The notes under the pieces are model-generated. The model was not told where the DNA came from. It did no database searches and saw only the letters and a list, made by a program, of their open reading frames with translations. Both the position numbers and the translations under genes were made by a program. A stretch of DNA of 64,000 nt from a virus. Of the stretch, positions 276 through 62,179 are shown piece by piece. Location of the stretch: IMG/VR virus record IMGVR_UViG_3300043775_000927, positions 26,246-90,245 of that record; one strand, 5' to 3'. The stretch's first letter is position 1; each line of letters begins with the position of its first letter.

Positions 276-351
276 GGGGGCGTAGCTCAATTGGGAGAGC
301 GCAGCACTGTCACTGCTGAGGTAGCGAGATCGAAACTCGTCGCTCCCGCCA
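276..351 (+). tRNA. tRNA-Asp (GUC)
   Basis: Full cloverleaf: GGGGGCG/CGCTCCC acceptor stem, D arm GCTC/GAGC, anticodon loop CTGTCAC (GTC), T arm with TCGAAA-type loop, encoded CCA at 349-351. It starts two bases after the HNH stop codon. Confidence 0.93.
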
Positions 352-356
352 TATAT

Positions 357-448
357 GGGGGATGGTGTTGGTACACAGGGAGGTTTTATAAACCTTTCAG
401 CGCCCGATTAGCGTTCTCGACTCGGTTCGAATCCGGGATCCCCTACCA
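357..448 (+). tRNA. class II tRNA-like gene, anticodon reads UAU
   Basis: The acceptor stem GGGGGAT/ATCCCCT, T arm (CTCGG-TTCGAAT-CCGGG) and encoded CCA (446-448) are clear, and the variable arm is long, as in Leu/Ser/Tyr tRNAs. The 7-nt anticodon loop that allows a 5-bp stem (GAGGT/ACCTT) is TTTATAA, which puts UAU at 34-36. That is an Ile anticodon on a Leu-like body. Position 8 is G, not the usual U. The isotype is uncertain; it may be a mutated tRNA-Leu(UAA). Confidence 0.7.
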
Positions 449-451
449 ATT

Positions 452-541
452 GGAGAGTTGGCCGAGTGGTCGAAGGCACTTCACTGCTAACGAAGCGAGG
501 GCGAAAGTCTTCCGAGAGTTCGAATCTCTCACTCTCCGCCA
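452..541 (+). tRNA. tRNA-Ser (GCU)
   Basis: Class II tRNA with acceptor GGAGAGT pairing to ACTCTCC, anticodon loop CTGCTAA (GCT), long variable arm, T loop TTCGAAT and encoded CCA at 539-541. Confidence 0.92.
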
Positions 542-550
542 AAAAAGTTA

Positions 551-579
551 TTGACTTGTTAGAAAATTTATAGTATTAT
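551..579 (+). promoter_or_regulatory. sigma70-type promoter
   Basis: TTGACT (551-556), 17-nt spacer, TATTAT (574-579). It lies between the first tRNA group and the structured RNA at 595-759. The predicted start (about 586) would put that RNA at the 5' end of a tRNA-cluster transcript. Confidence 0.75.
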
Positions 580-594
580 GACTAAATAGAATAC

Positions 595-759
595 TTGATA
601 ATACGCCAACGGATCAGACTACGGTTCGAAACGTTGACAAATGATACGGTAAGAATTGATCCAGACTAACCTGCGATGGTTAGCACCCGATGAGGGTGTA
701 ATAGCAAACGGTGATAAGGCTACCTATTGGTCATTGTTGGTCCGTTGGCGTATTATCAA
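595..759 (+). ncRNA. structured RNA closed by a 19-bp perfect stem
   Basis: Bases 595-613 and 741-759 are exact reverse complements (19 bp). The enclosed 127 nt contain a 6-bp hairpin (666-671/678-683), directly followed by a 5-bp hairpin (684-688/694-698), a stem 699-704/724-729, and an alternative GGATCA/TGATCC pairing (611-616/657-662). No long ORF with a ribosome site fills it and it is not a tRNA. Phage T4 also encodes small stable RNAs of unknown role in its tRNA cluster, so a stable RNA is a reasonable inference. It is expressed from the promoter at 551-579 and lies 2 nt upstream of tRNA-Ala. Confidence 0.7.
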
Positions 760-760
760 T

Positions 761-836
761 GGGGGTGTAGCTCAACTGGGAGAGCAGCTGCCTTGCACGC
801 AGCAGGTTGCAGGTTCGATGCCTGTCACTTCCACCA
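761..836 (+). tRNA. tRNA-Ala (UGC)
   Basis: Acceptor GGGGGTG/CACTTCC, D arm GCTC/GAGC, anticodon stem GCTGC/GCAGC with loop CTTGCAC (TGC), good T arm, encoded CCA 834-836. Confidence 0.93.
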
Positions 837-839
837 ATT

Positions 840-923
840 GGAGGATGGCGTGCCTGGGGCACACAGAGTCTTGAAAACTCCGCCACCGAAAGGTTGATGG
901 TTCGATTCCTTCATCCTCCGCCA
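840..923 (+). tRNA. tRNA-Ser (UGA)
   Basis: Class II tRNA: acceptor GGAGGAT/ATCCTCC, anticodon loop CTTGAAA (TGA), long variable arm, T loop TTCGATT, CCA 921-923. Confidence 0.92.
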
Positions 924-925
924 GT

Positions 926-999
926 ATCAGTGAAGTGTTACGGTAGCACGGGAGTCTCCAAAACTCTAGGCGAGGGTTCGACTCCTTCCACTGGTGCCA
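926..999 (+). tRNA. tRNA-Trp (CCA)
   Basis: Acceptor ATCAGTG/CACTGGT, D arm with GG, anticodon stem GGAGT/ACTCT with loop CTCCAAA (CCA), T loop TTCGACT, encoded CCA 997-999. Confidence 0.9.
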
Positions 1000-1006
1000 A
1001 TTTAAT

Positions 1007-1050
1007 GAGTCGGGGATGTATGACACAATTTGTGCCCTGACTCTATTTTT
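1007..1050 (+). terminator. hairpin followed by T-run, possible terminator
   Basis: A 9-bp stem (1007-1015 with 1035-1043, one G-U) encloses a loop carrying GACACAATTTG; it is followed by TATTTTT. It may be an intrinsic terminator or an RNA-processing signal. The loop motif recurs at 1513-1526. Confidence 0.5.
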
Positions 1051-1131
1051 CGCTGGACTGCTAATCGATGGTTCCTAGGTCTGTCGAGGTGTTTACCAGT
1101 AGAGGGTCCCGATACCTCTATAATAACAGGG
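1051..1131 (+). ncRNA. structured spacer RNA, perhaps a degenerate tRNA
   Basis: Two hairpins are visible: CGATGG/CTGTCG (six pairs, two G-U) near 1066-1087, and AGAGG/CCTCT near 1102-1120. The stretch CTGCTAA close to 1058 equals the anticodon loop of tRNA-Ser(GCU), and the second hairpin looks like a T arm. There is no acceptor stem or CCA. It could be a tRNA remnant or a separate small RNA. Confidence 0.35.
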
Positions 1132-1141
1132 AAGCTATTTC

Positions 1142-1216
1142 GCTGGTAGGTCGGCAAGATGTCGAGGAGTCCTCATAAGGCTTTAAAGGTTGGTTTGATT
1201 CCAACTATCAGCACCA
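1142..1216 (+). tRNA. tRNA-Met-like (CAU)
   Basis: Acceptor GCTGGTA/TATCAGC (with one G-U), anticodon stem GAGTC/GGCTT with loop CTCATAA (CAT), T arm GTTGG/CCAAC, encoded CCA 1214-1216. The D loop is short and lacks the usual GG. CAU could be Met or, if lysidinylated, Ile. Confidence 0.75.
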
Positions 1217-1223
1217 GGTTTGA

Positions 1224-1289
1224 TCTAGATACACAGCCTTTATGGAGTGTCGTAATACTAGACAACATTCGTCCCAAGGCGTGAGGGAC
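1224..1289 (+). other. structured inter-tRNA spacer
   Basis: Two nested stems: TCTAG/CTAGA (1224-1228/1258-1262) enclosing ACAC/GTGT, then GTCCC/GGGAC (1271-1275/1285-1289). No ORF or tRNA is visible. It may be a processed spacer or a small RNA. Confidence 0.35.
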
Positions 1290-1298
1290 AGCGAGTTT

Positions 1299-1374
1299 TG
1301 CGGGCGGGAGGTATAGTATCTCGCTGGTCTCATAAACCAGTAGAAGTTGGTGCAATTCCAACGCATCGCATCCA
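1299..1374 (+). tRNA. tRNA-Met-like (CAU), imperfect acceptor stem
   Basis: Anticodon stem CTGGT/ACCAG with loop CTCATAA (CAT), T arm GTTGG/CCAAC and D stem GAGG/TCTC are clear, and CCA is at 1372-1374. Only about five acceptor pairs form (TGCGG with TCGCA). It may be a divergent or decaying second CAU tRNA. Confidence 0.55.
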
Positions 1375-1381
1375 GTATAAT

Positions 1382-1458
<77 letters not shown>

Positions 1459-1496
1459 ATTCGCCCGCTTCGGCGTAGAAAAATAGAGCGCATGTA

Positions 1497-1577
1497 GGAC
1501 CGAGTGCAGACAGGACACAATTTGAGCCATACTGCGAAAGTGCACTAGTAGCAGGAAGGCGGACGAGTCTTCGGTCC
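1497..1577 (+). ncRNA. structured spacer RNA
   Basis: A 7-bp perfect closing stem (GGACCGA 1497-1503 with TCGGTCC 1571-1577) encloses a second stem GTGCA/TGCAC (1504-1508/1541-1545). The loop carries GACACAATTTG, shared with the hairpin at 1007-1043. There is no tRNA or ORF. It looks like one member of a set of small structured RNAs between the tRNAs. Confidence 0.45.
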
Positions 1578-1587
1578 AGGGAATTTT

Positions 1588-1663
1588 GGGGGATTAGCTC
1601 AGCTGGGAGAGCAACGCTTTTACACGGCGAAGGTCGGCAGTTCAATCCTGTCATCCCCTACCA
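1588..1663 (+). tRNA. tRNA-Val (UAC)
   Basis: Acceptor GGGGGAT/ATCCCCT, U8 A9, D arm GCTC/GAGC, anticodon loop TTTACAC (TAC), T loop TTCAATC, CCA 1661-1663. Confidence 0.92.
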
Positions 1664-1680
1664 TATGTTCCAGTAGGACG

Positions 1681-1732
1681 GTCATAGACGTATGGCTTAG
1701 TCTCTGGCAGGGTGCTGGTTAGCTCGTAACTA
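1681..1732 (+). other. structured inter-tRNA spacer
   Basis: Two 6-bp hairpins: GTCATA/TATGGC with loop GACG (1681-1696), and TGGTTA/TAACTA with loop GCTCG (1716-1732). No ORF or full tRNA. Function unknown. Confidence 0.35.
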
Positions 1733-1752
1733 TCACAGACCCGTAAGTTTAT

Positions 1753-1829
1753 GCCCCAATAGCCCAATTGGTAGAGGCGTCGGTCTTAGGAACCGAAGGT
1801 TGGGAGTTCGAATCTCTCCTGGGGCACCA
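1753..1829 (+). tRNA. tRNA with anticodon UAG (Leu), class I size
   Basis: Acceptor GCCCCA/TGGGGC, anticodon stem TCGGT/ACCGA with loop CTTAGGA (TAG, reads Leu CUA), T loop TTCGAAT, CCA 1827-1829. The variable loop is short (class I), whereas bacterial tRNA-Leu is class II. Its D arm is nearly the same as that of the CAA tRNA at 2019-2096. Confidence 0.85.
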
Positions 1830-1830
1830 T

Positions 1831-1906
1831 GCTTCTCTGGTGTAGCTGATGCGCACGCTCGTCTGAAGAACGAGAGGACTCTGTTTGATTCTGAGGGGAA
1901 GCACCA
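1831..1906 (+). tRNA. tRNA-Phe (GAA)
   Basis: Acceptor GCTTCTC/GGGAAGC (one G-U), anticodon stem CTCGT/ACGAG with loop CTGAAGA (GAA), CCA 1904-1906. Confidence 0.9.
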
Positions 1907-1910
1907 TTAT

Positions 1911-2012
1911 AGGTCAGTGACGTAATAGTAACCGTGGCGCTAACGCTGGGCGCTGTTGTCTATTATCCGGATAATGGATAACGTGTAGGTGCAACTCCTA
2001 CCTGGCCTACCA
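1911..2012 (+). tRNA. 102-nt tRNA-like gene, isotype undetermined
   Basis: The acceptor (AGGTCAG/CTGGCCT), T arm (GTAGG/CCTAC with loop TGCAACT) and encoded CCA (2010-2012) are clear. The middle is too long: besides a GC-rich segment (1936-1953) it has a stem CTATTAT/ATAATGG (1960-1966/1971-1977). No standard 7-nt anticodon loop can be placed with confidence. It could be a class II tRNA with a distorted anticodon arm, a tRNA with an insertion, or a tRNA mimic. Confidence 0.55.
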
Positions 2013-2018
2013 TATAAT

Positions 2019-2096
2019 GCTCCTATATCCCAACTGGTAGAGGACGTTGACTCAAAATCATCGCTAGTGTCAGTTCGAATCTGACTAGGAGTACCA
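2019..2096 (+). tRNA. tRNA-Leu (CAA), class I size
   Basis: Acceptor GCTCCTA/TAGGAGT, anticodon loop CTCAAAA (CAA), T arm GTCAG/CTGAC, CCA 2094-2096. The variable region is short. The AGGAG of the acceptor 3' strand lies about 9 nt before the ATG of the next gene and could double as its ribosome site. Confidence 0.82.
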
Positions 2097-2100
2097 TATT

Positions 2101-2601
2101 ATGACTATCTTTGTTGTTAGTGATACGCACTTTGGTCATGCTAATATACTCAACTTCAAACAGGCAGATGGTTCTCCTGTTAGAAACTTTTCTTCTGTTG
2201 AAGAAATGGATGAGCATATGGTTGAACGTTGGAACAGTGTTGTTTCTGACTCTGACATTGTGTATCATCTAGGTGATGTTTATTTTGGTAAAGGTCATCA
2301 GCATCTTTACAGATTGAAAGGGCGTAAGCGTCTTATTCTTGGCAACCATGATAATGCTAAGAACGAACACATACAGAATGTCTTTCAAAAGATTATGGTC
2401 TGGAGAATGTTTCCGGAATACAATGCTACTCTGTCGCATATTCCATTGCATGTTTCTAGTCTGTATAAAACAAAGTATAATGTTCATGGACATGTGCATC
2501 GTAATAGTTTGCCCGATGAAGCATATAAGAATGTTTCCGTTGAGGTAATTGATTACACACCTGTTCCATTACTGGATTGTCTCGATAGCTCAACTGAATA
2601 G
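2101..2601 (+). CDS. calcineurin-like metallophosphoesterase
   Basis: 166 aa with the full two-metal phosphoesterase signature: DTH (D8, H10), GDV (D59), GNHD (81-84) and HGHVH (129-133). Such phage enzymes hydrolyse phosphodiesters or phosphomonoesters; the substrate cannot be told. The gene sits inside the tRNA cluster with no clear SD of its own except the AGGAG inside the preceding tRNA. Its last seven codons and stop overlap the 5' end of tRNA-Arg (2579), so C-terminus and tRNA share DNA. A role in RNA repair or tRNA maturation would suit the place but is inference. Confidence 0.85.
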   Translation: MTIFVVSDTHFGHANILNFKQADGSPVRNFSSVEEMDEHMVERWNSVVSDSDIVYHLGDVYFGKGHQHLYRLKGRKRLILGNHDNAKNEHIQNVFQKIMVWRMFPEYNATLSHIPLHVSSLYKTKYNVHGHVHRNSLPDEAYKNVSVEVIDYTPVPLLDCLDSSTE

Positions 2602-2655
2602 AGCATCGGTCTACGAAACCGAAGGCTACAGGTTTGAATCCTGTTCGGGACTCCA
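2579..2655 (+). tRNA. tRNA-Arg (ACG)
   Basis: Acceptor GTCTCGA/TCGGGAC, D arm GCTC/GAGC, anticodon stem TCGGT/ACCGA with loop CTACGAA (ACG), CCA 2653-2655. The first 23 nt overlap the 3' end of the phosphoesterase gene. Confidence 0.92.
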
Positions 2656-2660
2656 TTAAT

Positions 2661-2744
2661 GCCGAGACCGCCTGAGTGGACGGGCACCCGACTGTAAATC
2701 GGACGCTTATAGCACGGTAGGTTCGAACCCTACTCTCGGCACCA
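2661..2744 (+). tRNA. tRNA-Tyr (GUA)
   Basis: Class II tRNA: acceptor GCCGAGA/TCTCGGC, anticodon loop CTGTAAA (GTA), long variable arm, T loop TTCGAAC, CCA 2742-2744. Confidence 0.93.
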
Positions 2745-2751
2745 TTTTTGT

Positions 2752-2826
2752 TCGGGGATAGTTTAATTGGTAGAACGGCAGATTTTGGTTCTGTCTATCA
2801 GGGTTCGAGTCCTTGTCCCCGATCCA
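2752..2826 (+). tRNA. tRNA-Gln (UUG)
   Basis: Acceptor TCGGGGA/TCCCCGA, anticodon loop TTTTGGT (TTG), T loop TTCGAGT, CCA 2824-2826. Confidence 0.92.
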
Positions 2827-2830
2827 GTTT

Positions 2831-2904
2831 GCTGGGATAGTGTAGTGGTAGCACACGAGTTTGTGGAGCTTGTAGTTCAGGATCGATACCTGGTCCCAGT
2901 ACCA
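2831..2904 (+). tRNA. tRNA-His (GUG)
   Basis: Acceptor GCTGGGA/TCCCAGT, anticodon stem CGAGT/GCTTG with loop TTGTGGA (GTG), CCA 2902-2904. Confidence 0.9.
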
Positions 2905-2915
2905 TTGAGGTTGTT

Positions 2916-3650
2916 ATGAAAGTTTATTGGACAGCAGTAAATACATTCAATGTAAATGAGAGTGATAATCATTCGCTCCAGTTTTTGAATTATTACGAAC
3001 CGATGAAAACTTCGGAACTGTTTAATAAATTACCTTCGAACGATCTAAAACCGTTGGACAATTTTAAGTATTGTCCTAGTATGAAAAGAAGAATTCATAA
3101 TTCGTATGAGTTAAGATTTCCTATTGATTACACTTTAAAATTTACTGACGATGGCGATGTCTATTCTGATATGTATGATCAGAAATTTTTTGATGATGTT
3201 GTTAGAGTTAGAATGGCAAAAGAGAGATTGATCTCTCTTAATTTATACTATTGGTTTATTCCAGAACAAAGCGTAGAGATTCAGACGACTCCTACGTATC
3301 TCGGCGATACCGAGTTTGGTAAAACAACCATTGGTATGCCAGGACAGTTTAATATATATGAATGGATTAGAAACATAGAGTTTGCCTTTTTCGTGAGGAA
3401 CGGATATAATGAGGTAACTTTAAAACGTGGAGATCCTTATCTTAATGTAAAGTTTATGACCGATGAAAATGTAGAACTGGTAAAGTTCTATCCATCAGAG
3501 AAAATTTTACATTTGATGCAACGAAATTTGTCTGCAAGAAATAATAAATATCCTTTGATTAGTCCTTTAGAATATTATTATGACTTGTTTAGAAAATCAA
3601 AACTTAGAAAACAGTTTATGGAAGAGGTTTTAGATAATCTCTTAGAATGA
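2916..3650 (+). CDS. hypothetical protein, 244 aa
   Basis: I do not recognise this protein. It is rich in Tyr, Phe and Asn with no signal peptide or membrane segment. The middle holds several aromatic-rich beta-like stretches, and the C-terminus (about 205-244) is helical and basic/acidic. A GAGG site lies 5 nt before the ATG. It lies between tRNA-His and tRNA-Asn, 11 nt and 4 nt away, so it is probably cotranscribed with the tRNAs. Confidence 0.75.
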   Translation: MKVYWTAVNTFNVNESDNHSLQFLNYYEPMKTSELFNKLPSNDLKPLDNFKYCPSMKRRIHNSYELRFPIDYTLKFTDDGDVYSDMYDQKFFDDVVRVRMAKERLISLNLYYWFIPEQSVEIQTTPTYLGDTEFGKTTIGMPGQFNIYEWIRNIEFAFFVRNGYNEVTLKRGDPYLNVKFMTDENVELVKFYPSEKILHLMQRNLSARNNKYPLISPLEYYYDLFRKSKLRKQFMEEVLDNLLE

Positions 3651-3654
3651 ATAT

Positions 3655-3729
3655 TCCCTGGTAGCTCAGTGGTAGAGCAGGTCGCTGTTAACGACTTGGC
3701 CGGAGGTTCGAATCCTTCTCAGGGAGCCA
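3655..3729 (+). tRNA. tRNA-Asn (GUU)
   Basis: Acceptor TCCCTGG pairing with TCAGGGA, anticodon stem GGTCG/CGACT with loop CTGTTAA (GTT), T loop TTCGAAT, CCA 3727-3729. Confidence 0.93.
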
Positions 3730-3744
3730 TTTTTAGGATGTTGT

Positions 3745-4329
3745 ATGTCTGCCTTCATACATGATTATTGCAAGGTCTATCCCAATCATTTGGGAGAAGA
3801 TATTTGCGATGAATTGATTGCGATGTTTAAATGGAAACCAGATCTTCATATCAGATATGATGATGACGGTTTTCCGAATATGACGCAGATGAATTTTAGT
3901 CGTCATAAACTAATACATCCTACACTACATCAGCATCTAGTTGAACGTGCATTCGATGGTATCGAGAGATATCGTAAGGAAGTTCCGGAGACTAGGTTCT
4001 GGCCAAAGAATTTCGCATTCGAAGAGTTTAGAATCAAACATTATTCGGATGGCAGAGAGTATCCTAACAGACAGTCAATAGATCGGTTCGATGAACATAT
4101 CGATTCGAATGATCTTATTTCTGGCAAACGGTTTATGATTTTCTTTTGGTATCTAAACAGACCAGAGAGTGGCGGAAATACCTGTATAACGAATATCAAT
4201 CTGCATTACGAACCAGCAAAAGGTAAGCTGTTAATGTTCCCTCCTTTCTGGATGTATCCGCATGCAGGCGAGGCAGTATTAAGAGGCGATAAGTATTTAC
4301 TAAGTTCGTATATGCATTACAGCGAGTGA
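3745..4329 (+). CDS. 2-oxoglutarate/Fe(II) oxygenase, prolyl-hydroxylase type
   Basis: 194 aa with an HxD iron motif (H118, D120), a jelly-roll FFWYLN strand followed by GGNT (about 143-146), and a distal H173 with R180 for 2-oxoglutarate. This is the P4H-like pattern of phage oxygenases; the target could be a protein or a nucleic acid. Its stop overlaps the GTG codon upstream of the next gene, so the two are probably an operon. It is one of eight such enzymes in the window. Confidence 0.82.
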   Translation: MSAFIHDYCKVYPNHLGEDICDELIAMFKWKPDLHIRYDDDGFPNMTQMNFSRHKLIHPTLHQHLVERAFDGIERYRKEVPETRFWPKNFAFEEFRIKHYSDGREYPNRQSIDRFDEHIDSNDLISGKRFMIFFWYLNRPESGGNTCITNINLHYEPAKGKLLMFPPFWMYPHAGEAVLRGDKYLLSSYMHYSE

Positions 4330-4331
4330 TT

Positions 4332-5258
4332 ATGACAACTGTTCCAATTTATAATTCTGTTGGCCAAGTAGTAGACAAACTAGAGATTGATGATGACCTG
4401 CAGCATGTAAATGGAAGAGTGTCGAAAGGTAAAGAGTATTATTACAAAGGCGCTGGTGCTCCATATCATGGCCAGTTTTTGGATAGTAATCCAATCGTAA
4501 ATACTTACGGTTATGATGTTGTAGATTTCTCTGACGTTTTTTATATGGGACCATACGCTCGTAAGTGGGCGTTCAATAATAAGAGTGGTATCTTTCAAGA
4601 GAAATATCAGCCACAGTTTACAGACTTCATTGGCTCTTGTGGCGTAAAAGAATTATCTATTATTGAAAACTCAGAAGAATTTGATTTGTCTTCTGTTAAA
4701 GTTATCAAAGCAGTAAATTACGATAAAGATAATCAGCAATACTATTTTGTTTTAAATTATAAATGTGATAGGATTAAATATCTAGAACTGGGCGAACCAA
4801 GCTGTTTGTATATGTTACTAGAGTATATGATCAAGAACGATTGGAACTTTATCTGGGACAAGACTTCTATAGAGGATATCTCATACAATGGCCTTGTATC
4901 GGATGTGGGCGACATTTTTAAATCCGGAAACCTTGGTAATAAACTTGGTACCGTTTATTCTGTTCTTTATAGTCTTGGTAAGTTATCTCCTGATAAATAC
5001 GCAGAGTTTCTCCGAGAATGTAAACTTGACCATAACTCAGATATGTATTACATTGATAACTCTATATCTTTGTTACATCGGTTTGGGGTTGATGTGAGAG
5101 CTCTTAATGTTGGAGACCGCATAGCAAATTATAAAAATGCTGTCCTTAACTATCTCGTTACTGGTAGGAATTGCGGCGATTGTTGTTATATAGAACTTGG
5201 CGATAAAATTAGAGAGCAGTATCTTTTTCAGACAAAAAGACAGTTACTTGTTGACTAG
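4332..5258 (+). CDS. hypothetical protein, about 308 aa
   Basis: Unrecognised. The ATG at 4332 is preferred over an in-frame GTG at 4326; either start overlaps or abuts the oxygenase stop, which suggests coupling. The product is acidic and rich in Tyr and Asp, has no membrane segment, and ends with two Cys pairs near the C-terminus (CGDCC, about 285). The -35 box of the next promoter overlaps its last codons. Confidence 0.75.
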   Translation: MTTVPIYNSVGQVVDKLEIDDDLQHVNGRVSKGKEYYYKGAGAPYHGQFLDSNPIVNTYGYDVVDFSDVFYMGPYARKWAFNNKSGIFQEKYQPQFTDFIGSCGVKELSIIENSEEFDLSSVKVIKAVNYDKDNQQYYFVLNYKCDRIKYLELGEPSCLYMLLEYMIKNDWNFIWDKTSIEDISYNGLVSDVGDIFKSGNLGNKLGTVYSVLYSLGKLSPDKYAEFLRECKLDHNSDMYYIDNSISLLHRFGVDVRALNVGDRIANYKNAVLNYLVTGRNCGDCCYIELGDKIREQYLFQTKRQLLVD

Positions 5259-5278
5259 TAGGATAAATAGGGTATAAT
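5251..5278 (+). promoter_or_regulatory. sigma70-type promoter for secreted-protein genes
   Basis: TTGACT (5251-5256), 16-nt spacer, TATAAT (5273-5278). It overlaps the 3' end of the upstream gene and leaves a leader of about 70 nt before the gene at 5357. Confidence 0.85.
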
Positions 5279-5356
5279 AGAATTATAGATTGGGATGGAC
5301 GCCAGAAATAGTCTCGTGTAGATCAAAGGTTAATCTGCTATCTTATGGAGATGAAG

Positions 5357-5641
5357 ATGAAAAAGATTGTTGCTATTGCCGCTGTTTTAGGTATACTTAC
5401 TACTCCTGCTAATGCCTGGTATCGTGGCGGATGGGGCTATGGCGGAGGATGGGGTTACGGTGGTGCTGCCATTGCTGGTTTTGCTCTTGGTGGTCTCATT
5501 GGTGGTCTAGCTTCTGGTCCGTATTATCGTGGCGCTCCGTATCCATATTACTCGACTGGTCCAGGCTATGCGTATGGTCCCTATCCGGGAGTTCGCTATC
5601 AGTATTACTCTGGTCCGTCAGGATACTACTATGGATATTAA
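5357..5641 (+). CDS. secreted Gly/Tyr-rich small protein
   Basis: 94 aa from the ATG at 5357, chosen because GGAG (5347-5350) sits about 6 nt upstream; ATGs at 5345 and 5351 are in frame. A clear signal peptide (MKK, hydrophobic core, cleavage after ANA) is followed by Gly/Trp/Tyr repeats (GGWGYGG twice) and a short glycine-rich hydrophobic stretch, then Tyr/Pro/Gly-rich sequence. It resembles outer-membrane or periplasmic glycine-rich proteins of alphaproteobacteria. The role is unknown; it may alter the host envelope. Confidence 0.8.
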   Translation: MKKIVAIAAVLGILTTPANAWYRGGWGYGGGWGYGGAAIAGFALGGLIGGLASGPYYRGAPYPYYSTGPGYAYGPYPGVRYQYYSGPSGYYYGY

Positions 5642-5990
5642 GAAGCTCGCTCTCGCTCTTATTCTCTTCGCTACTCCTGCTTATGCAGGTCAAGAGATCG
5701 ATGTATGTAATGGTTGCACTATCACATACAAGACAACTCGAGTTGTTAAGAAGGTCGTAAGACCTGCTCCTGTTGTAGTTGCTCCAGCACCAGTTGTGCA
5801 GGTTATTCCTCCACAATACGTTCCCAATGGAGTTGGCATTGTCAGTAATCAAGTTTACATGATGCCAGTTACGCCAACGGTAGTTGTTCAGCAAGTTCCT
5901 GTTCAACCAGTTTGCACTTCATATCCTGATCCATGGGATACGCTGGGATATATTTTTGGTGATCCTATTATGATCACCGTGTGTCAATAA
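5631..5990 (+). CDS. secreted Pro/Val-rich small protein
   Basis: 119 aa. The ATG at 5631 overlaps the stop of the previous gene by 11 nt and has AGGA at 5620-5623. It has a signal peptide (MDIKK, hydrophobic core, cleavage after AYA), two Cys near the mature N-terminus (CNGC), then low-complexity Pro/Val repeats (APVV) and two more Cys near the C-terminus. It is probably exported together with the preceding protein. Function unknown. Confidence 0.8.
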   Translation: MDIKKLALALILFATPAYAGQEIDVCNGCTITYKTTRVVKKVVRPAPVVVAPAPVVQVIPPQYVPNGVGIVSNQVYMMPVTPTVVVQQVPVQPVCTSYPDPWDTLGYIFGDPIMITVCQ

Positions 5991-5991
5991 C

Positions 5992-6067
5992 GCTGGTATA
6001 GCTCAGACGGTAGAGCAGTTGCCTTGTAAGCATCAGGTCGAGGGTTCGATTCCTTCTGCCAGCACCA
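5992..6067 (+). tRNA. tRNA-Thr (UGU)
   Basis: Acceptor GCTGGTA/TGCCAGC, D arm GCTC/GAGC, anticodon loop CTTGTAA (TGT), T loop TTCGATT, CCA 6065-6067. The same 7-nt loop recurs in the RNA at 6994-7059. Confidence 0.92.
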
Positions 6068-6068
6068 T

Positions 6069-6143
6069 TCAGGAATAGTTTAATCGGTAAAACCACGGAC
6101 TCTGACTCCGTTAATCTTGGTTCGAGTCCAGGTTCCTGATCCA
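6069..6143 (+). tRNA. tRNA-Gln (CUG)
   Basis: Acceptor TCAGGAA/TTCCTGA, anticodon stem ACGGA/TCCGT with loop CTCTGAC (CTG), CCA 6141-6143. Confidence 0.92.
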
Positions 6144-6157
6144 ATCGAGGATATATT

Positions 6158-26248: not shown

Positions 26249-26324
26249 TGGTACTCCGGGAGGGATTCGAACCCCCGATGGAACCGTTATGAGCGGCTGG
26301 CCTTAACCACTTGGCTACCGGAGT
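26249..26324 (-). tRNA. tRNA-Met or Ile2 (CAU)
   Basis: The only tRNA seen on the minus strand. Acceptor ACTCCGG/CCGGAGT, anticodon stem AGCCG/CGGTT with loop CTCATAA (CAT), T arm GGGGG/CCCTC-type with loop TTCGAAT, encoded CCA 26251-26249. Confidence 0.9.
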
Positions 26325-50551: not shown

Positions 50552-51184
50552 TCAGTCCCACAGATTTTGATAATACTTACCGAACAGTCTAATGCCATTG
50601 GCAATTCGTTCTTGATGAGCCTGACGACCTTCGAAATTAATTATGCATTCTTTTTTCCAACGAAGAGGAATAGCATCTTTACCTTCGTCTTCAGGATAGT
50701 CTTCCCAATCAATCTCACCCTTTTGGATGACATACTGTTGTTCCCAGTCAGTGTCATACTGCTCGAACGCCCAGATCATTTCATTAAGAACCCAATCCCA
50801 CTTATGCATAAACCACTGAGTTGTAGGATAAATGTATTCGTCGTTCTCATTATAGACAGGAGCAGCATCATCATAACGCATATGCACTGGAACGTCGTCG
50901 TTGTCAACCATCGGAGCACCATGCTTGGTCTCTCTTAGCTGCTTTAACATTGGAACGATAATCAAAGCAAGAGTGCTATCCATATTCCAAGTATCATACT
51001 TGTCAATACGAATCTTTATCTTACGTTCTTTCTTGCTATCAATCCAGCTACAAACATCAGCAACCCAAGTATTGGCAAGCCATTCGCCAATCTTGTCTCT
51101 GGTTTCCTCGCTGACAAAAGGAATCTTGTCAGCGATCTGGTATGGTCCTAGCCATGTAGTGTATGGCCCGATATATACACGCAT
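50552..51184 (-). CDS. conserved hypothetical phage protein, 210 aa
   Basis: VYIGPYTTWLGPYQIADKIPF start and Trp-rich segments (FMHKWDWVLNEMIWAF, about 125-140) match a protein conserved in diverse phages. No known motif. Abuts the HNH gene. Confidence 0.75.
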   Translation of the reverse strand: MRVYIGPYTTWLGPYQIADKIPFVSEETRDKIGEWLANTWVADVCSWIDSKKERKIKIRIDKYDTWNMDSTLALIIVPMLKQLRETKHGAPMVDNDDVPVHMRYDDAAPVYNENDEYIYPTTQWFMHKWDWVLNEMIWAFEQYDTDWEQQYVIQKGEIDWEDYPEDEGKDAIPLRWKKECIINFEGRQAHQERIANGIRLFGKYYQNLWD

Positions 51185-51675
51185 TAAATTCTTTCCTTAC
51201 AATTATCAAAATGCCATTGAATCATTTGTGGTTTGCCTCCAACCTTTTTACAGTGTGGGCATTGTATTTTTTCTTTTGGACGACCTTTCATCGTTTCACT
51301 TCTCTTAGCATTAGCCTCTGGGGTGGTTGTATTAGTTTCCCAATTTAATTTTTTACCTTTTCTGGCCAAAGACATTTTCTTTCTAGTCTCTTCTGTAGTA
51401 ATCTGCTTAGAACGAGCCTTTTTTATCTTTTCAATAGATTCTGGAGAATGGTTCCTGCCAAGCCAAGTCAATCTTGTTATTTCACGTCTCAGATCATCTC
51501 CACTTATTTGTCCAGAAAGAGATTTCCAAGCTATGAGATCTTGCCAGTTACCATTCTCTTCCCATAATTTTTTATGGGCTTCGGCGTGTTCTTCGACCGA
51601 AAGTTCTATAAGGTTTGAAGGATCGTTAGTACCTCCCATATATCTTGGTATAATATGATGAATGTGTTTACCCAT
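51184..51675 (-). CDS. HNH homing endonuclease with NUMOD-like region
   Basis: 163 aa. HHIIPRYMGGTNDPSNLIELSVEEHAEAH is the HNH core; TEETRKKMSLARKGKKL and a later ETMKGRPKE are NUMOD3-type DNA-binding repeats; the C-terminus has CPHC ... H ... C. It is inserted between two phage genes next to uvsX. Its ribosome site is in a hairpin with a late promoter. Confidence 0.85.
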   Translation of the reverse strand: MGKHIHHIIPRYMGGTNDPSNLIELSVEEHAEAHKKLWEENGNWQDLIAWKSLSGQISGDDLRREITRLTWLGRNHSPESIEKIKKARSKQITTEETRKKMSLARKGKKLNWETNTTTPEANAKRSETMKGRPKEKIQCPHCKKVGGKPQMIQWHFDNCKERI

Positions 51676-55624: not shown

Positions 55625-55652
55625 ATTATACTATATTTCACTATTTTGTCAA
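55625..55652 (-). promoter_or_regulatory. sigma70-type promoter for the DNA polymerase gene
   Basis: Minus strand TTGACA (55652-55647), 16-nt spacer, TATAAT (55630-55625), near-consensus. The leader (about 50 nt) contains tRNA-like fragments (TTCGATC). Confidence 0.85.
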
Positions 55653-57269
55653 ACATTTTCCAATTTCAGGAAACCAAAGAACTTCTAGTTGAGACCTATA
55701 GAAACATTCAATAGCTTCTTCCTGTGTTTCTATCAGAGGATCTCCTGCCAGATTAAAACTGGTATTCAATAATGCAGGACATCCAGTCTCATCATAGAAG
55801 TTTAATAACAATTCTTTCATATGTGGAATTTCGTCGTCAACAGTTTGTATTCTACAACTATTATCGACATGAACAATACCCGGAATAACATTTGTTCTTT
55901 TGCAGCTGAAAGAAATTGTCATAAATTCTGATTTGTCCAAACCATGAGTTTCGAAATATTCTTGGAAATATTCTTTTAAAATAAATCCAGCGAATGGTCT
56001 ATACCACTCTCTTTGTTTGATGATATTAACTATTTCTTTTGCGTTTGGATTACGAGCATCGAATAGAATAGATCTATTACCAAGAGCTCTTGGCCCAGCT
56101 TCTGCCATGCCATTATACACCGCAACGGTTTTCTGGTTTATTAAATGACGAACTATATCCTGCGTAGTGCAGTCGTTTCCGATATTTTTGGGTTTTACAT
56201 TCTTTCCGTGGAAAAATGTATGTTTTAATTTTGTTCTAGTATTATCTTGGGTTAAAGATCTGTGTAATAACATAGCAGCGCCGATACTATTACCAGTATC
56301 ATCAGCCAGAGGCTCGAAATAAAATTCAACCTCTGGTAAATTTCTGATAAGATATTCGTTACACACAACGTTCAAAGCGTAACCGCCAGTAATACATACC
56401 TGTTTTATACCAGTTTTTCTCACCCATTGAGAAACCATATCCAATACTTGTTCTTGCGTTTGTTTCTGGACTTGATATGCATAGTCCGCATAAAATTGGT
56501 AGTTGTCTTTGCGCAGATCAAAGTTTATATTGTTTTCATATTCTTTAAATAAAGTAGACTCAACGTAATCTACTACAAAATTATCATGCAAAAACAAATT
56601 ATCAACTGGACGATTGTTTTGGAAAAAATTAATAAATTGTTTATCTTTTCCATAAGATGCCAATCCCATTGTTTTACCATTTTCTAATGGGCATTGACCT
56701 ATTAGGGTCGTAGCTGATTCGTAAACTTTAACAATACTCATATTACTATCAGCGTTGAACGAAAATTTAGTTTGATTGTTAAATTTATTTAATAGTGTAG
56801 GGAATTTATCATAAAACCCTTTTTCTGTATTATGTATCCAATAATTTTTATGTAACGTTCGGAAATTACAAGGATACGACGCTTCAAATACAGTTTCAGC
56901 TTCTCTTACTAATCCTTCAATAGCAGCGCCATTTCTATCAATAACAAAAACCAAACAATTCTCGAATCCACTATTATAAAATGCTTGGCTTGCATGACAT
57001 AAATGATGCGAAGAAGTGTAATCTTTAATTTCTGTTCCGAAAATTCTTTTATAAGATTTATAGAATGTATATTCACTATCGTGATGGTCGCAGAGGGCGA
57101 AATAATCTATATCCTTGTGATGTTTTAGTATTTCATCAACAGAAGAAACTGCAGTTAAGGCACGTTTTTGCCTAACAAGTCTTTCTTCTTTGAAGAATAA
57201 TTTTATTTCGCCATCTTGCAACAATACAGCGCTACTATCATGATAGCCAGTAACACCTACAATTTTCAT
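55641..57269 (-). CDS. NodU/CmcH-family carbamoyltransferase
   Basis: 542 aa. GVTGYHDSSAVLL start, HLCHASQAFY (His metal site) and VFVIDRNG in the Kae1-like domain; YNGMAEAGPRALGNRSIL and the C-terminal YrdC-like portion with LLNTSFN. These enzymes carbamoylate hydroxyl groups of sugars or antibiotics. In a phage the target may be DNA bases or a glycan. Confidence 0.87.
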   Translation of the reverse strand: MKIVGVTGYHDSSAVLLQDGEIKLFFKEERLVRQKRALTAVSSVDEILKHHKDIDYFALCDHHDSEYTFYKSYKRIFGTEIKDYTSSHHLCHASQAFYNSGFENCLVFVIDRNGAAIEGLVREAETVFEASYPCNFRTLHKNYWIHNTEKGFYDKFPTLLNKFNNQTKFSFNADSNMSIVKVYESATTLIGQCPLENGKTMGLASYGKDKQFINFFQNNRPVDNLFLHDNFVVDYVESTLFKEYENNINFDLRKDNYQFYADYAYQVQKQTQEQVLDMVSQWVRKTGIKQVCITGGYALNVVCNEYLIRNLPEVEFYFEPLADDTGNSIGAAMLLHRSLTQDNTRTKLKHTFFHGKNVKPKNIGNDCTTQDIVRHLINQKTVAVYNGMAEAGPRALGNRSILFDARNPNAKEIVNIIKQREWYRPFAGFILKEYFQEYFETHGLDKSEFMTISFSCKRTNVIPGIVHVDNSCRIQTVDDEIPHMKELLLNFYDETGCPALLNTSFNLAGDPLIETQEEAIECFYRSQLEVLWFPEIGKCLTK

Positions 57270-57947: not shown

Positions 57948-57969
57948 GATAATCTCCTGAAATAAAAAA

Positions 57970-57989
57970 GGGAGAGCCGAAACTCTCCC
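57970..57989 (-). terminator. intrinsic terminator after hsp20
   Basis: Minus strand GGGAGAG/CTCTCCC stem, then TTTTTTATTT, between the hsp20 stop and the endolysin gene. Confidence 0.88.
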
Positions 57990-58001
57990 CTATTTAGAAG
58001 A

Positions 58002-58457
58002 TTACTTGATGTCTACTTTCTTCGGCTTCTTTTCCTCTGGAACTACGTTCTCTAGGAAAATCTTAAGCATACCATTAACATATTCTGCGTTCTTCACTTC
58101 AACCGTGTCAGCAAGAGTAAACTTGCGGGTAAACATACGATCAGCAATCCCCTTCCATAGATACTGGACTGGATTGTCAATGGGATCAATCTCGTCGACA
58201 GTAAATCCACCCTTAACTACGAGAGTGTTATTAGCTAATTCGATATCTAGATTATGCTTACCAAAACCAGCCACAGCCAATTCAATGCTGTAGTTGTTAT
58301 CATCAATCTTTACGATATTATATGGAGGCCAGTTTGGGGAGTTGTTTAGGATTGCCTTGGTGTAGGTATCATTAACATTAGTTAGAGTGTCTAGAACCTT
58401 ATCAAAACCTACAAAATGCTTGTTTAGATTGGACAAATTGAAAACATCGTTTGTCAT
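58002..58457 (-). CDS. small heat-shock protein Hsp20
   Basis: 151 aa IbpA-like alpha-crystallin domain: YSIELAVAGFGKHNLDIEL, VVKGG, RKFTLADTVEV and NGMLKIFL. Many T4-like cyanophages carry hsp20; it may help fold virion or membrane proteins. It has its own promoter and terminator. Confidence 0.92.
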   Translation of the reverse strand: MTNDVFNLSNLNKHFVGFDKVLDTLTNVNDTYTKAILNNSPNWPPYNIVKIDDNNYSIELAVAGFGKHNLDIELANNTLVVKGGFTVDEIDPIDNPVQYLWKGIADRMFTRKFTLADTVEVKNAEYVNGMLKIFLENVVPEEKKPKKVDIK

Positions 58458-58512: not shown

Positions 58513-58541
58513 AATATAATATGAGAAGAGGGGAAAGTCAA
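58513..58541 (-). promoter_or_regulatory. sigma70-type promoter for hsp20
   Basis: Minus strand TTGACT (58541-58536), 17-nt spacer, TATATT (58518-58513). The -35 box lies within the pmoC terminator hairpin. Confidence 0.75.
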
Positions 58542-58560: not shown

Positions 58561-59328
58561 TTATTCTGCTAGTAACTTAACGCCATCACGCCCTAGCAAA
58601 GCATGAACACGTCCTAGGATTTGGAGAACAACGCCGAACACACCAAGTGCCATCCAGCCGAAGAATACGAAGCCCCAATGCAATGGTGCTACGAATAGTT
58701 CTTCCATGAACCAGAAAGTATGACCCCATTCGTTGAGTCCAACGTTTGGAATAATCATAAATGGTCCAATAGCGACAATCAAGAATGCAAGGCTGTAACC
58801 ATGTGAGAAGTATGGGATACGAGTTCTTGCATAGAAGAAAGCGCCAACTGCAATTACGCTATAAATTGGATATGACATGTAGAACTCAATGATATGACTT
58901 GGAGTAAAGTCAGTATCACGAATAACAGTCATATGCCATGTACCATCCTGTTCAGTAAAGAAGGATGCGCCCCAATAAATGGCAGCAGCATACACAACAA
59001 GCCACTGAACAAGAACTACTAGACGACGCATTTCCTCACGAGGAGTCACGGCGTCAATATCTCGATCTCTTGTCTTCCAAAGATAACCAGCAAGTGCTAG
59101 TCCTGAGACTAACTCAAGCGGAATCTCTGTCCAGAGAATAGACATCCAATATGTCTGAAACTCGGGCGCAAATGAATCAAGTCCAGCCCTCCAGCCGAAC
59201 ACTTGTTCATAGATACGGACAATGAGATAGAATGTGTTTAGAAGGGCAAGCCCAATCCACATTCCACGGAGATCAACGACATCTGACTTTGCTGCAACTG
59301 CAGCGCTTGTAGTAGTTACTGTACTCAT
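58561..59328 (-). CDS. pmoC: particulate methane monooxygenase subunit C
   Basis: 255 aa, full length. TEQDGTWH (D128, H132), SHIIEFY (H145), NEWGHTFWFMEEL (N199, H203) and APLHWGF (H217). With a constant offset of 28 these equal D156/H160/H173 (CuC) and N227/H231/H245 (CuD) of Methylococcus capsulatus PmoC. Six or so membrane spans, GWRAGLDSFAPEFQTYWM and DTDFTPSHI are typical of methanotroph PmoC, not AmoC, and closest in style to alphaproteobacterial versions. pmoA and pmoB are not in the window; pmoC-only phages are known. Confidence 0.93.
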   Translation of the reverse strand: MSTVTTTSAAVAAKSDVVDLRGMWIGLALLNTFYLIVRIYEQVFGWRAGLDSFAPEFQTYWMSILWTEIPLELVSGLALAGYLWKTRDRDIDAVTPREEMRRLVVLVQWLVVYAAAIYWGASFFTEQDGTWHMTVIRDTDFTPSHIIEFYMSYPIYSVIAVGAFFYARTRIPYFSHGYSLAFLIVAIGPFMIIPNVGLNEWGHTFWFMEELFVAPLHWGFVFFGWMALGVFGVVLQILGRVHALLGRDGVKLLAE

Positions 59329-59403
59329 ATATTATTCTCCATAGAGAAAAAATCAAGTGGTCAGTTTCGCCTTTGGTGACGGTGAAACCGCCACTCTTGA
59401 GTT

Positions 59404-59434
59404 TATTTATACTATAACCCCATACAAAAGTCAA
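59404..59434 (-). promoter_or_regulatory. pmoC promoter: sigma70-like with overlapping late box
   Basis: Minus strand TTGACT (59434-59429), 17-nt spacer, TATAAA (59411-59406), overlapping TATAAATA (59411-59404). Both host-type and phage late transcription could drive pmoC. Confidence 0.75.
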
Positions 59435-59445
59435 ATACTATTTTC

Positions 59446-59670
59446 TTAATGGAGCTTTTTTCCGAAAGTTTCTTTTGCGAAACAATAGATGTCCATATTG
59501 CGTTGATCTAGAATAAACATCGGTGTCATATTAGCAGCCTTATATTCTTCTGCTGCTTGTAACACGACTGCAAATCCGCTATCTGGTTCTTTATCGATAG
59601 CTTCCCATGCTTCTTTAACTATCTTCTCTGAAACAACTATCAAGTTTTCTATATTAGGTATGTTTTTCAT
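59446..59670 (-). CDS. hypothetical protein, 74 aa
   Basis: Starts with an ATGA overlap to the 2OG-like gene. Acidic helices and a hydrophobic centre (GFAVVLQAAEEYKAANMTPMF). Function unknown. Confidence 0.6.
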   Translation of the reverse strand: MKNIPNIENLIVVSEKIVKEAWEAIDKEPDSGFAVVLQAAEEYKAANMTPMFILDQRNMDIYCFAKETFGKKLH

Positions 59671-60299
59671 ACTATCTGTCTCATTTTTTCTATAGGAGAA
59701 AGCTGATCAGAAACATGTTGAACAAAGAACACCTGACATAATCTATCTTCTCTTGTGTTATCACCAACTCTTCCATGCCAAGTCTCGCCGTCAAAAGCTA
59801 CCAGCCTATTAAAGATTTGAGAAAATCTGGCTGTCTCTTGTAACAATGCGCCATCATGTTCATCAGAATATTCTACTGGTCTATAGATAGCCACCCCTGC
59901 GTGCATTTCTTCATCTTTATTTAAAAATATAACTCCAGAAATGACATTATTTGGATCCAGATGAGCGTTATTATCACTACGAAATGTTCCACCATATCGG
60001 CTACCCCATAATAACTCTTCTGGTTTATAGAGAGTATAATTTTTACTTTCTACTGGATAATTTTTATGAAAAACGTTTTTGACGATATACTGTAAAGAAG
60101 GATCTAATATATCATAAAACATAGATAGTAATTTTTTATTGAAATAGTCGTCAAATTCTGGTTGAACGTCTTTCATAGGAGAAGTTCTCAATCCGATACA
60201 ACTTGGCATTTTATGAAATGTTTGTTGAAGAGCGAATTCTCTAACCTCGTCTGGATATTCATAAAAATCATCAACGCAAAAAGTAGGAAATTTTTTCAT
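59667..60299 (-). CDS. 2OG oxygenase-like protein, paralogue 1
   Basis: 210 aa. AHLDPN (H-x-D), SGVIFLNKDEEMHAGVAIY and VAFDGETWHGR (distal His). Same scaffold as the products at 60296 and 61511: FCVDDFYEYPDEVREFAL opening, about 30% shared positions by eye. DUF6445-like. Substrate unknown. Confidence 0.72.
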   Translation of the reverse strand: MKKFPTFCVDDFYEYPDEVREFALQQTFHKMPSCIGLRTSPMKDVQPEFDDYFNKKLLSMFYDILDPSLQYIVKNVFHKNYPVESKNYTLYKPEELLWGSRYGGTFRSDNNAHLDPNNVISGVIFLNKDEEMHAGVAIYRPVEYSDEHDGALLQETARFSQIFNRLVAFDGETWHGRVGDNTREDRLCQVFFVQHVSDQLSPIEKMRQIV

Positions 60300-60850
60300 A
60301 TTTTCGGTAACCTTTCTAGCGGAAAAACTGTATTTTTCGGCATAAACTCTATAAAAAATACTTGCGATAATCTATAATCATTTTCTATATACCTAGTGGT
60401 GACTCTATGAGGATATCTGCTACCGTCAAAACCTATAAGTCTATTATATTTGTTTTGGAAAGTAATTACCTCTTCAAGAGGCTTTTCAAAAGATTTATAT
60501 ACAGTCGTTCCAGCTTTTGGATTTGGATTAGGTGTCAAATATATAACACCGCCCATCAACACATTTGGGTCTTTGTGTAGTAAACCATTATTGTCAGGAG
60601 AATCAGGATCATCGCTTTTTCTGAAATGAATATGGAAAGCTGTATATACTTTATACCTAACGGGTGAGTCGTAAAAAACAGAAAATAGTTTATCGCAAAA
60701 TCTGGAGAATAACTCTGGATTTATTTCAGATAGACATTGAGATCTTTTATCATATGGAGTTTGATCTTCATACTCTAATCCAAGAGCGTATTCTCTAATA
60801 GCTTCTGGATTTTCATAAAAATCATCAATACAAAATAATGGAAACTTCAT
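60296..60850 (-). CDS. 2OG oxygenase-like protein, paralogue 2
   Basis: 184 aa. FCIDDFYENPEAIREYAL opening, LLHKDPN (H-x-D), GGVIYLTPNPNPKAGTTVY and GFDGSRYPHR. Shorter than the others. Four-base overlap with paralogue 1. Confidence 0.7.
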   Translation of the reverse strand: MKFPLFCIDDFYENPEAIREYALGLEYEDQTPYDKRSQCLSEINPELFSRFCDKLFSVFYDSPVRYKVYTAFHIHFRKSDDPDSPDNNGLLHKDPNVLMGGVIYLTPNPNPKAGTTVYKSFEKPLEEVITFQNKYNRLIGFDGSRYPHRVTTRYIENDYRLSQVFFIEFMPKNTVFPLERLPKI

Positions 60851-61252: not shown

Positions 61253-61524
61253 AAAAAATTATTCCATTGTTAATTGCAGTTCTACTGGCTTCTTGTAATA
61301 GTCAGGAGCAGATTGTAACATCATACAAATATATGGTCGCACATCCATCCGAGGCGATGTATTACTGTCCTGTGGTGAAACAGTTTCCGAAGTGGCAGAC
61401 TCTGACTGATTCTCAGGTTGCGAAGTTGATAGTCCAACTACAAAAGAACAACTTGACATGTAAGTCCTCTATTGAAAGTATTAGAAATTTTATTAATAAT
61501 GCAGATAAACTCACAAAACCTTAA
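61249..61524 (+). CDS. outer-membrane spanin lipoprotein (Rz1-like)
   Basis: 91 aa with a lipobox LLASC at the end of the signal peptide (C16). The gene overlaps the inner spanin by 4 nt (ATGA), as is usual for spanin pairs. Longer than lambda Rz1 but similar to other o-spanins. Confidence 0.78.
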   Translation: MKKIIPLLIAVLLASCNSQEQIVTSYKYMVAHPSEAMYYCPVVKQFPKWQTLTDSQVAKLIVQLQKNNLTCKSSIESIRNFINNADKLTKP

Positions 61525-62179
61525 ATCTATTTAATGGTGTTGGAATATTGGCGTTTATACGATGCGCAAAGAAAACGTGAGTTAGCCTTTCGCTTTGCGT
61601 GTTGTCGCCTGTTCTTCCATGGTATGATTTGCCATCAAAAACAACCAAACGATTATATACCTGTTTGAAATTAGCAGATTCTATTACAGTTTCTTTTTCG
61701 ATATCTCCATTACCATATCTGATAGGATCAGTGTTTTCTACAACTCTATAAATGGCAGTTCCAGCATGAGGCTCGGCAATAGGATTCAAATAAACCACGC
61801 CAGAGAAAAAACTGTTATCGTCTAAATGGACAGCAGTAGGTATCTCTGATTCATAGCTAGGAACGAAATCTCTATATTTGTGAGCAACGTGAAGCGTTTG
61901 ATCTGTGTTCTTAGCAAACGTAGAATTGTCTGTTACTCTGTGTAAATGGAAATGAGATCTGATCATCCATTGAACATCGTTCCTACCCATATCGTAAAAT
62001 ACAGATAGCAACTGTTTAGCAAAAACATCGGAAAATTCTGGATTAATTTCGTGTAGCGGAGCGGTTCGTCTGCCCTGACATGGCCCAATGTTATTAAAAT
62101 CCAGAGATAGAGCGTATTCTCTAATAGCGTCTGGATTGTTATAAAAATTGTCAATACAAAATGCTGGAAAATGTAACAT
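61511..62179 (-). CDS. 2OG oxygenase-like protein, paralogue 3
   Basis: 222 aa. FCIDNFYNNPDAIREYAL opening, AVHLDDN (H-x-D), SGVVYLNPIAEPHAGTAIY, VVFDGKSYHGR and HVFFAHRI. Converges with the o-spanin gene (14-nt overlap). DUF6445-like. Confidence 0.72.
   Translation of the reverse strand: MLHFPAFCIDNFYNNPDAIREYALSLDFNNIGPCQGRRTAPLHEINPEFSDVFAKQLLSVFYDMGRNDVQWMIRSHFHLHRVTDNSTFAKNTDQTLHVAHKYRDFVPSYESEIPTAVHLDDNSFFSGVVYLNPIAEPHAGTAIYRVVENTDPIRYGNGDIEKETVIESANFKQVYNRLVVFDGKSYHGRTGDNTQSERLTHVFFAHRINANIPTPLNRFKVL

Follow-up and report, generated by a model that had tools for sequence, protein, structure and literature searches.

The pmoC gene described here comes from a T4-like phage whose host is probably a Methylocystis-type methanotroph. 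It is probably a functional auxiliary metabolic gene, with a late and stabilized message that would renew the catalytic subunit of the host's pMMO. We analyzed a stretch of 64,000 nucleotides (the window) that belongs to an IMG/VR virus record of 90,245 bases. The record is a fragment; its nearest long relatives are 162 to 169 kb, and published pmoC-phage genomes range from 159 to 527 kb (Chen et al. 2020, PMC7674155). The phage belongs with the pmoC-phages already described by Chen et al. 2020 (PMC7674155), and the record may correspond to a Lake Mendota phage of that study or to a sister of such a phage. What is new here is the regulatory anatomy of pmoC and the conservation of the CuD ligands. 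The features of the locus are collected in Table 1.

Table 1. Features in and around the pmoC locus, in window positions
Feature	Position	Strand	Remarks
Canonical intrinsic terminator after hsp20	57968..57991	(-)	–
hsp20	58002..58457	(-)	Syntenic neighbor of pmoC
hsp20 sigma70-like promoter, TTGACT-17-TATATT	58513..58541	(-)	-35 inside the 3' hairpin of pmoC
3' hairpin immediately downstream of the stop codon	58528..58553	(-)	10 bp here; no good U-tract
pmoC, stand-alone	58561..59328	(-)	255-aa PmoC; complete CuC (D128, H132, H145) and CuD (N199, H203, H217) sets
Short hairpin UUCUC/GAGAA	59335..59348	(-)	Pairs part of the Shine-Dalgarno (GGAG, 59337-59340)
5' leader stem-loop, closing stem GAGUGG...CCACUU	59355..59396	(-)	Begins at +3 of the predicted transcript
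Alternative hairpin GUGGCGGU/ACCGUCAC	59376..59394	(-)	Same leader, mutually exclusive; one compensatory pair only
TATAAATA T4-type late promoter box	59404..59411	(-)	Also the sole possible sigma70 -10 (TATAAA)
TTGACT, -35-like hexamer	59429..59434	(-)	17 bp from the TATAAATA box
74-aa ORF (orf74)	59446..59670	(-)	Upstream neighbor of pmoC in nearly all group A phages

The phage encodes a full-length PmoC with both copper sites

The pmoC open reading frame (ORF) opens with ATG and has no internal stop, and it constitutes a full-length PmoC. Its product matched the Pfam AmoC family (PF04896) with 360.1 bits (E = 6.6e-108), well beyond the curated cut-off of 26.7 bits, and covered model positions 4 to 244 of 245. 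The first-pass annotation, made from the sequence alone, had claimed that six CuC and CuD ligands match Methylococcus PmoC, each shifted by the same 28 positions; all six were indeed present, and the offset was exact. In the alignment, Asp156, His160, and His173 of Methylococcus correspond to the CuC residues of the phage protein, and Asn227, His231, and His245 (the CuD ligands as named in PMC11194816) correspond to its CuD residues; phage positions 4 to 237 match 1yew_C positions 32 to 265 at equal length. These six ligands were invariant in 52 distinct phage PmoC rows (34 alpha-type and 18 gamma-type). The CuD ligands were named as the active site only after the original report of pmoC-phages (PMC11194816), and their invariance supports the phage PmoC being catalytic.

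Solved PmoC structures span the phage protein end to end. The best of these were 4phz_K (Methylocystis-type; 524 bits), 3chx_C (492 bits), and the 1yew_C/7s4h group (347 bits), while AmoC entries reached at most 222 bits. The termini of the phage protein differ from those of the host's, as also reported previously (PMC7674155). Across PmoC positions in the ligand-alignment rows, no consistent difference between phage and host was found at the cut-offs used.

Phage PmoC groups with that of Methylocystis and Methylosinus, and its gene is under purifying selection

In a maximum-likelihood tree of 122 PmoC rows, the window protein clustered with other phage sequences in a group of 34 rows that contains no bacteria (support, 88/72); the nearest bacterial row was Methylocystis sp. 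JZJ.7. This group nests within the PmoC of Methylocystis and Methylosinus (support, 98/92), rather than with AmoC or in a non-methanotroph clade, either of which would have refuted the first-pass annotation; the comparison with AmoC was made by score and not in the tree. The placement agrees with the methanotroph host proposed in the first-pass annotation, a host call that we draw solely from the PmoC phylogeny and that suggests Methylocystis as the likely genus. A CRISPR spacer match to methanotrophs, which had been proposed as a check, was not found in one test of 20 kb of the window against 199 genomes of the host's family. The best spacer candidate (L183; 35 bp, 89%) fell within unique coding-like sequence with no CRISPR repeat array and was rejected as a chance match, as were the other candidates, which were short matches at chance level. 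No cultured phage relative encoding PmoC was present in the phage collection searched. Separately, one metagenome-assembled contig labeled Elusimicrobia (L098, JAQTNG010000322.1) carries a Methylosinus-type pmoC, probably through a binning error.

The GC3 of the phage pmoC was 37%, compared with 75% in Methylocystis, and dN/dS against other alpha-phage pmoC copies ranged from 0.04 to 0.09, which points to strong purifying selection. The low dN/dS together with the phage-like GC3 implies a long residence of pmoC in phage genomes, and we read pmoC as an old, working phage gene rather than a recent passenger. Five loci (L023, L025, L033, L034, and L041) have the locus and leader of group A, the phage group that we define by the pmoC leader, but encode a PmoC that belongs to the other phage subclade; this pattern suggests that the coding sequence has been exchanged while the locus stayed the same.

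A T4-like backbone carries pmoC alone, beside hsp20

The record encodes a T4-like major capsid protein (gp23), a gp43/T4-type DNA polymerase, UvsX, and a DnaB-like helicase, as well as the late sigma factor gp55 (124.5 bits at G000:C1:8694-9191, with the query from Sinorhizobium phage phiM12), all of which bear out its description as a T4-like phage. Genes for PmoA and PmoB were absent from the record (a 90-kb fragment) and from five long relatives, and the same search detected both in two Methylocystis control genomes; the stand-alone nature of pmoC was thereby confirmed, as was the presence of hsp20 next to it. The gene order orf74-pmoC-hsp20 is common to most group A contigs; an M15 peptidase often comes next, with the DNA polymerase behind it. 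The orf74 product had no Pfam or PHROG match. The flanks of pmoC are identical in L002 to L005, and in L020 pmoC retains its leader and promoter although its usual neighbors are missing.

Several other genes lie in the same part of the genome. A carbamoyltransferase (Pfam Carbam_trans N and C domains; 55641-57269, minus strand) sits between the DNA polymerase and the M15 peptidase and is also found in L025. Upstream of pmoC are three paralogous minus-strand ORFs (59667-60299, 60296-60850, and 61511-62179) that match phrog_1644 ("minor coat protein"), one of them with a weak match to DUF6445. Nineteen tRNA genes form one block (window positions 276-6530), and a lone tRNA-Met lies at 26249-26324.

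pmoC is preceded by a composite, late-type promoter

The first-pass annotation described a dual promoter, sigma70-like and late. Both the sigma70-like -35 and the late box TATAAATA are present, but the two promoters overlap, with TATAAATA doubling as the sole possible -10, and form one composite element. Among distinct group A sequences, TATAAATA stood before pmoC in 17 of 18 upstreams, and TTGAC (TTGAT in L025) occurred at the exact spacing of 17 bp in 15 of 18 promoters, with a spacer of variable sequence. Three promoters (L021, L022, and L024) have lost the -35 and kept TATAAATA. The box was also found in 12 of 15 distinct upstreams of gamma-methanotroph phages and in none of 74 upstreams of bacterial pmoC; shuffled controls gave at most 3 occurrences for group A and 2 for the gamma phages. 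Three gamma phages (L061, L063, and L067) have a sigma70-like promoter and a separate TATAAATA a few bases downstream.

By count, TATAAATA was not enriched in the window (7 occurrences versus 5.2 expected), and thus we dropped it as a mere count signal and retained it for its position only. In the 90-kb record, 8 of its 13 sites lie no more than 120 nt upstream of a same-strand gene, compared with 12% for isomeric words (P = 3e-5), the best positional enrichment of 54 words with the same letters. The box also precedes gp23 in the record and in its two nearest long relatives. Another copy lies 26 nt before the start of a homing endonuclease gene (51184-51675, minus strand).

A late-type promoter is the well-supported prediction for pmoC. 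Reading the element as a host sigma70 promoter is also plausible, though less convincing: the final T is missing from the shared -10 (TATAAA), and a consensus promoter scanner did not list this reading. Since TTGAC is so widely conserved, we call the element composite rather than a plain T4 late promoter.

The second lineage of alpha pmoC-phages is organized differently. It carries TATAAATA in only 2 of 13 distinct upstreams, its leaders are different, and pmoC is located elsewhere in the genome, with the box mostly missing before both pmoC and the capsid gene; its late promoters may differ from those of group A. In L029 to L032, L035, L040, L045, L053, and L054, other paired hairpins precede pmoC (GTAGTC..GACTAC, then GACCGG..CCGGTC in many), and TATAAATA is missing upstream of pmoC and, in those contigs that show the capsid gene, upstream of that gene as well.

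Hairpins flank the pmoC message at both ends

In T4, the late promoter box occupies positions -13 to -6 (PMC2988020). With this geometry, the predicted start falls on the first A of AAGAGUGG in all 17 box-bearing group A leaders (the A at 59398 in the window), precisely at the point where five variable bases give way to conserved sequence again. The spacing Box-N5-AAGAGTGG is fixed, and in each of these 17 leaders a stem begins at +3. Our leader listing comprised 16 distinct sequences plus the L022 and L024 variants of L021, and two leaders that duplicate others were left out of the count. The window leader had a predicted folding energy of -23.6 kcal/mol (z, -4.1), and pmoC leaders folded better than the record's other TATAAATA sites (mean z, -1.9 versus -0.5; P = 7e-4), in statistics that count related sequences separately and take their controls from this phage only. 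In three gamma phages (L071, L072, and L074), unrelated leaders have the same layout (AA, then a stem).

A covariance model of the leader found it only at pmoC in G000, G001, and G002. Neither the host loci nor 10 host genomes gave a match, 199 genomes of the host's family yielded just two weak ones (E = 0.13 to 0.33), and the upstreams of Methylocystis pmoC showed no resemblance to the phage leader. Around the pmoC locus, no Rfam family reached its gathering score, with two sub-threshold chance matches. It is important to note that covariation in the 5' stem is weak, without clear excess over shuffles, because the nearly invariant arms hardly vary; the 5' structure therefore rests on complementarity, energy, and position.

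At the other end, a hairpin of 9 to 15 bp follows the pmoC stop codon in 14 of 16 distinct group A loci; in L020 the fold is weak (-7.9), and in L025 no hairpin is evident. Its pairs covary among relatives, with G-C, A-U, U-A, or C-G at comparable places. The terminator hairpin of the first-pass annotation is a real, conserved hairpin, but the window's copy has no good U-tract and is not a canonical terminator; one of that type comes only after hsp20. In most group A loci, the hsp20 -35 lies in or beside the loop of this hairpin.

Proposed role of the phage gene and alternative explanations

We propose that the phage supplies PmoC alone, the membrane subunit with the CuC and CuD sites, which would enter the membrane and join host PmoA and PmoB, so renewing or supplementing the host enzyme while host gene expression is shut down. 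Energy and reductant derived from methane would then keep flowing during phage replication. The composite promoter would be read at TATAAATA by the gp55 late holoenzyme and, more weakly, by host sigma70 via the -35 box. The 5'-terminal stem-loop and the 3' hairpin most likely protect the message from decay, which would yield much PmoC late in infection. The predicted late expression fits the Lake Rotsee phages, in which pmoC transcripts were seen together with structural-gene transcripts (Chen et al., PMC7674155). As a point against our reading, the smaller Lake Rotsee pmoC-phages were probably inactive (Chen et al., PMC7674155). The scarcity of TATAAATA in the second alpha lineage and a conserved -35 that is foreign to T4 late promoters are further points against our reading.

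The -35 could instead mean that host sigma70 alone transcribes pmoC, as a middle or early gene, and that TATAAATA is a mere AT-rich -10. The exact 17-bp spacing of TTGAC in most group A promoters favors this, but the hexamer is missing its usual last T, the late box of eight bases is better conserved and persists in the promoters that have lost the -35, and the gamma phages noted above have their sigma70-like promoter in addition to a separate downstream box; we consider transcription by sigma70 only to be unlikely. The leader, too, could act otherwise than by protecting the message. As a riboregulator, it would switch between two exclusive folds (GAGUGG..CCACUU or GUGGCnG..CnGUCAC) and carry a hairpin over the ribosome site, with a ligand, a protein, or temperature setting the amount of PmoC. 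Both folds are possible in nearly all group A leaders, three sequences have A-U instead of G-C at a pair specific to the short hairpin (12-20), most leaders retain the UUCUC/GAGAA pairing over the Shine-Dalgarno, and L020 keeps leader and promoter at pmoC without the usual neighbors. However, the long fold is favored by about 3 to 9 kcal/mol in each of the 16 leaders tested, covariation is not clearly above controls, no Rfam family matches, and the leaders of other pmoC-phage lineages are unrelated, and riboregulation seems to us quite unlikely. We give the same low likelihood to a previously undescribed regulatory RNA specific to pmoC, which would adjust PmoC output to the condition of the infected methanotroph either through two mutually exclusive folds or through the binding of a protein from phage or host.

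Other explanations concern the protein and the gene. Phage PmoC might be a decoy or modulator that displaces host PmoC and slows or alters methane oxidation, as its solitary carriage and its termini unlike the host's (PMC7674155) could suggest. Strong purifying selection, the six copper ligands invariant in phage rows, and the lack of any consistent phage-host difference at the cut-offs used stand against this, and we regard a decoy as improbable. That pmoC is a passenger or an assembly artifact (a recent acquisition from the host, or a piece of bacterial DNA misjoined to the phage) would fit the fragmented or partial pmoC of some phages (Chen et al., PMC7674155), but it is already contradicted by the identical flanks in L002 to L005, the orf74-pmoC-hsp20 order in many contigs, the phage-like GC3, and the low dN/dS, and is scarcely credible.

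Relation to known systems and implications

That pmoC phages had already been reported, as the first-pass annotation stated, is correct: they were published in 2020, including hsp20 next to pmoC (PMC7674155). With the 159- to 174-kb myoviruses with alphaproteobacterial PmoC of Chen et al. 2020 (PMC7674155), our phage shares a stand-alone pmoC without pmoA or pmoB, T4-like myovirus genes, a Methylocystis-type PmoC with its CuC ligands kept, many tRNA genes, and hsp20 adjoining pmoC (in six of theirs). That study reports the hsp20 gene beside pmoC, the CuC residues, and expression in situ; its main text does not treat promoters, leaders, hairpins, or CuD ligands (PMC7674155).

The promoter resembles those of T4 gp55-gp45 late transcription (PMC2988020) in its exact TATAAATA at a fitting distance, the gp55 gene, and the box before gp23, and it differs in having a conserved -35 at 17 bp, an element absent from T4 late promoters. 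Like the psbA genes of cyanophages (PMC3037559), pmoC encodes a core metal-binding subunit of a host energy-gaining complex and is carried by T4-like phages that also have hsp20, but the enzyme is another one, and a need for PmoC turnover is an analogy only. Viruses of ammonia oxidizers likewise carry a single gene for a copper membrane monooxygenase, that of its C subunit, amoC (PMC7674155, PMC10904782), whereas the protein here is PmoC by both score (524 bits to Methylocystis PmoC versus at most 222 to AmoC) and tree.

The timing and manner of phage pmoC expression were known before from bulk transcript counts only. The late-type promoter, the 5' stem-loop found only at pmoC, and the 3' hairpin together offer a concrete, testable mechanism by which phages that carry pmoC may alter the consumption of methane by freshwater bacteria.
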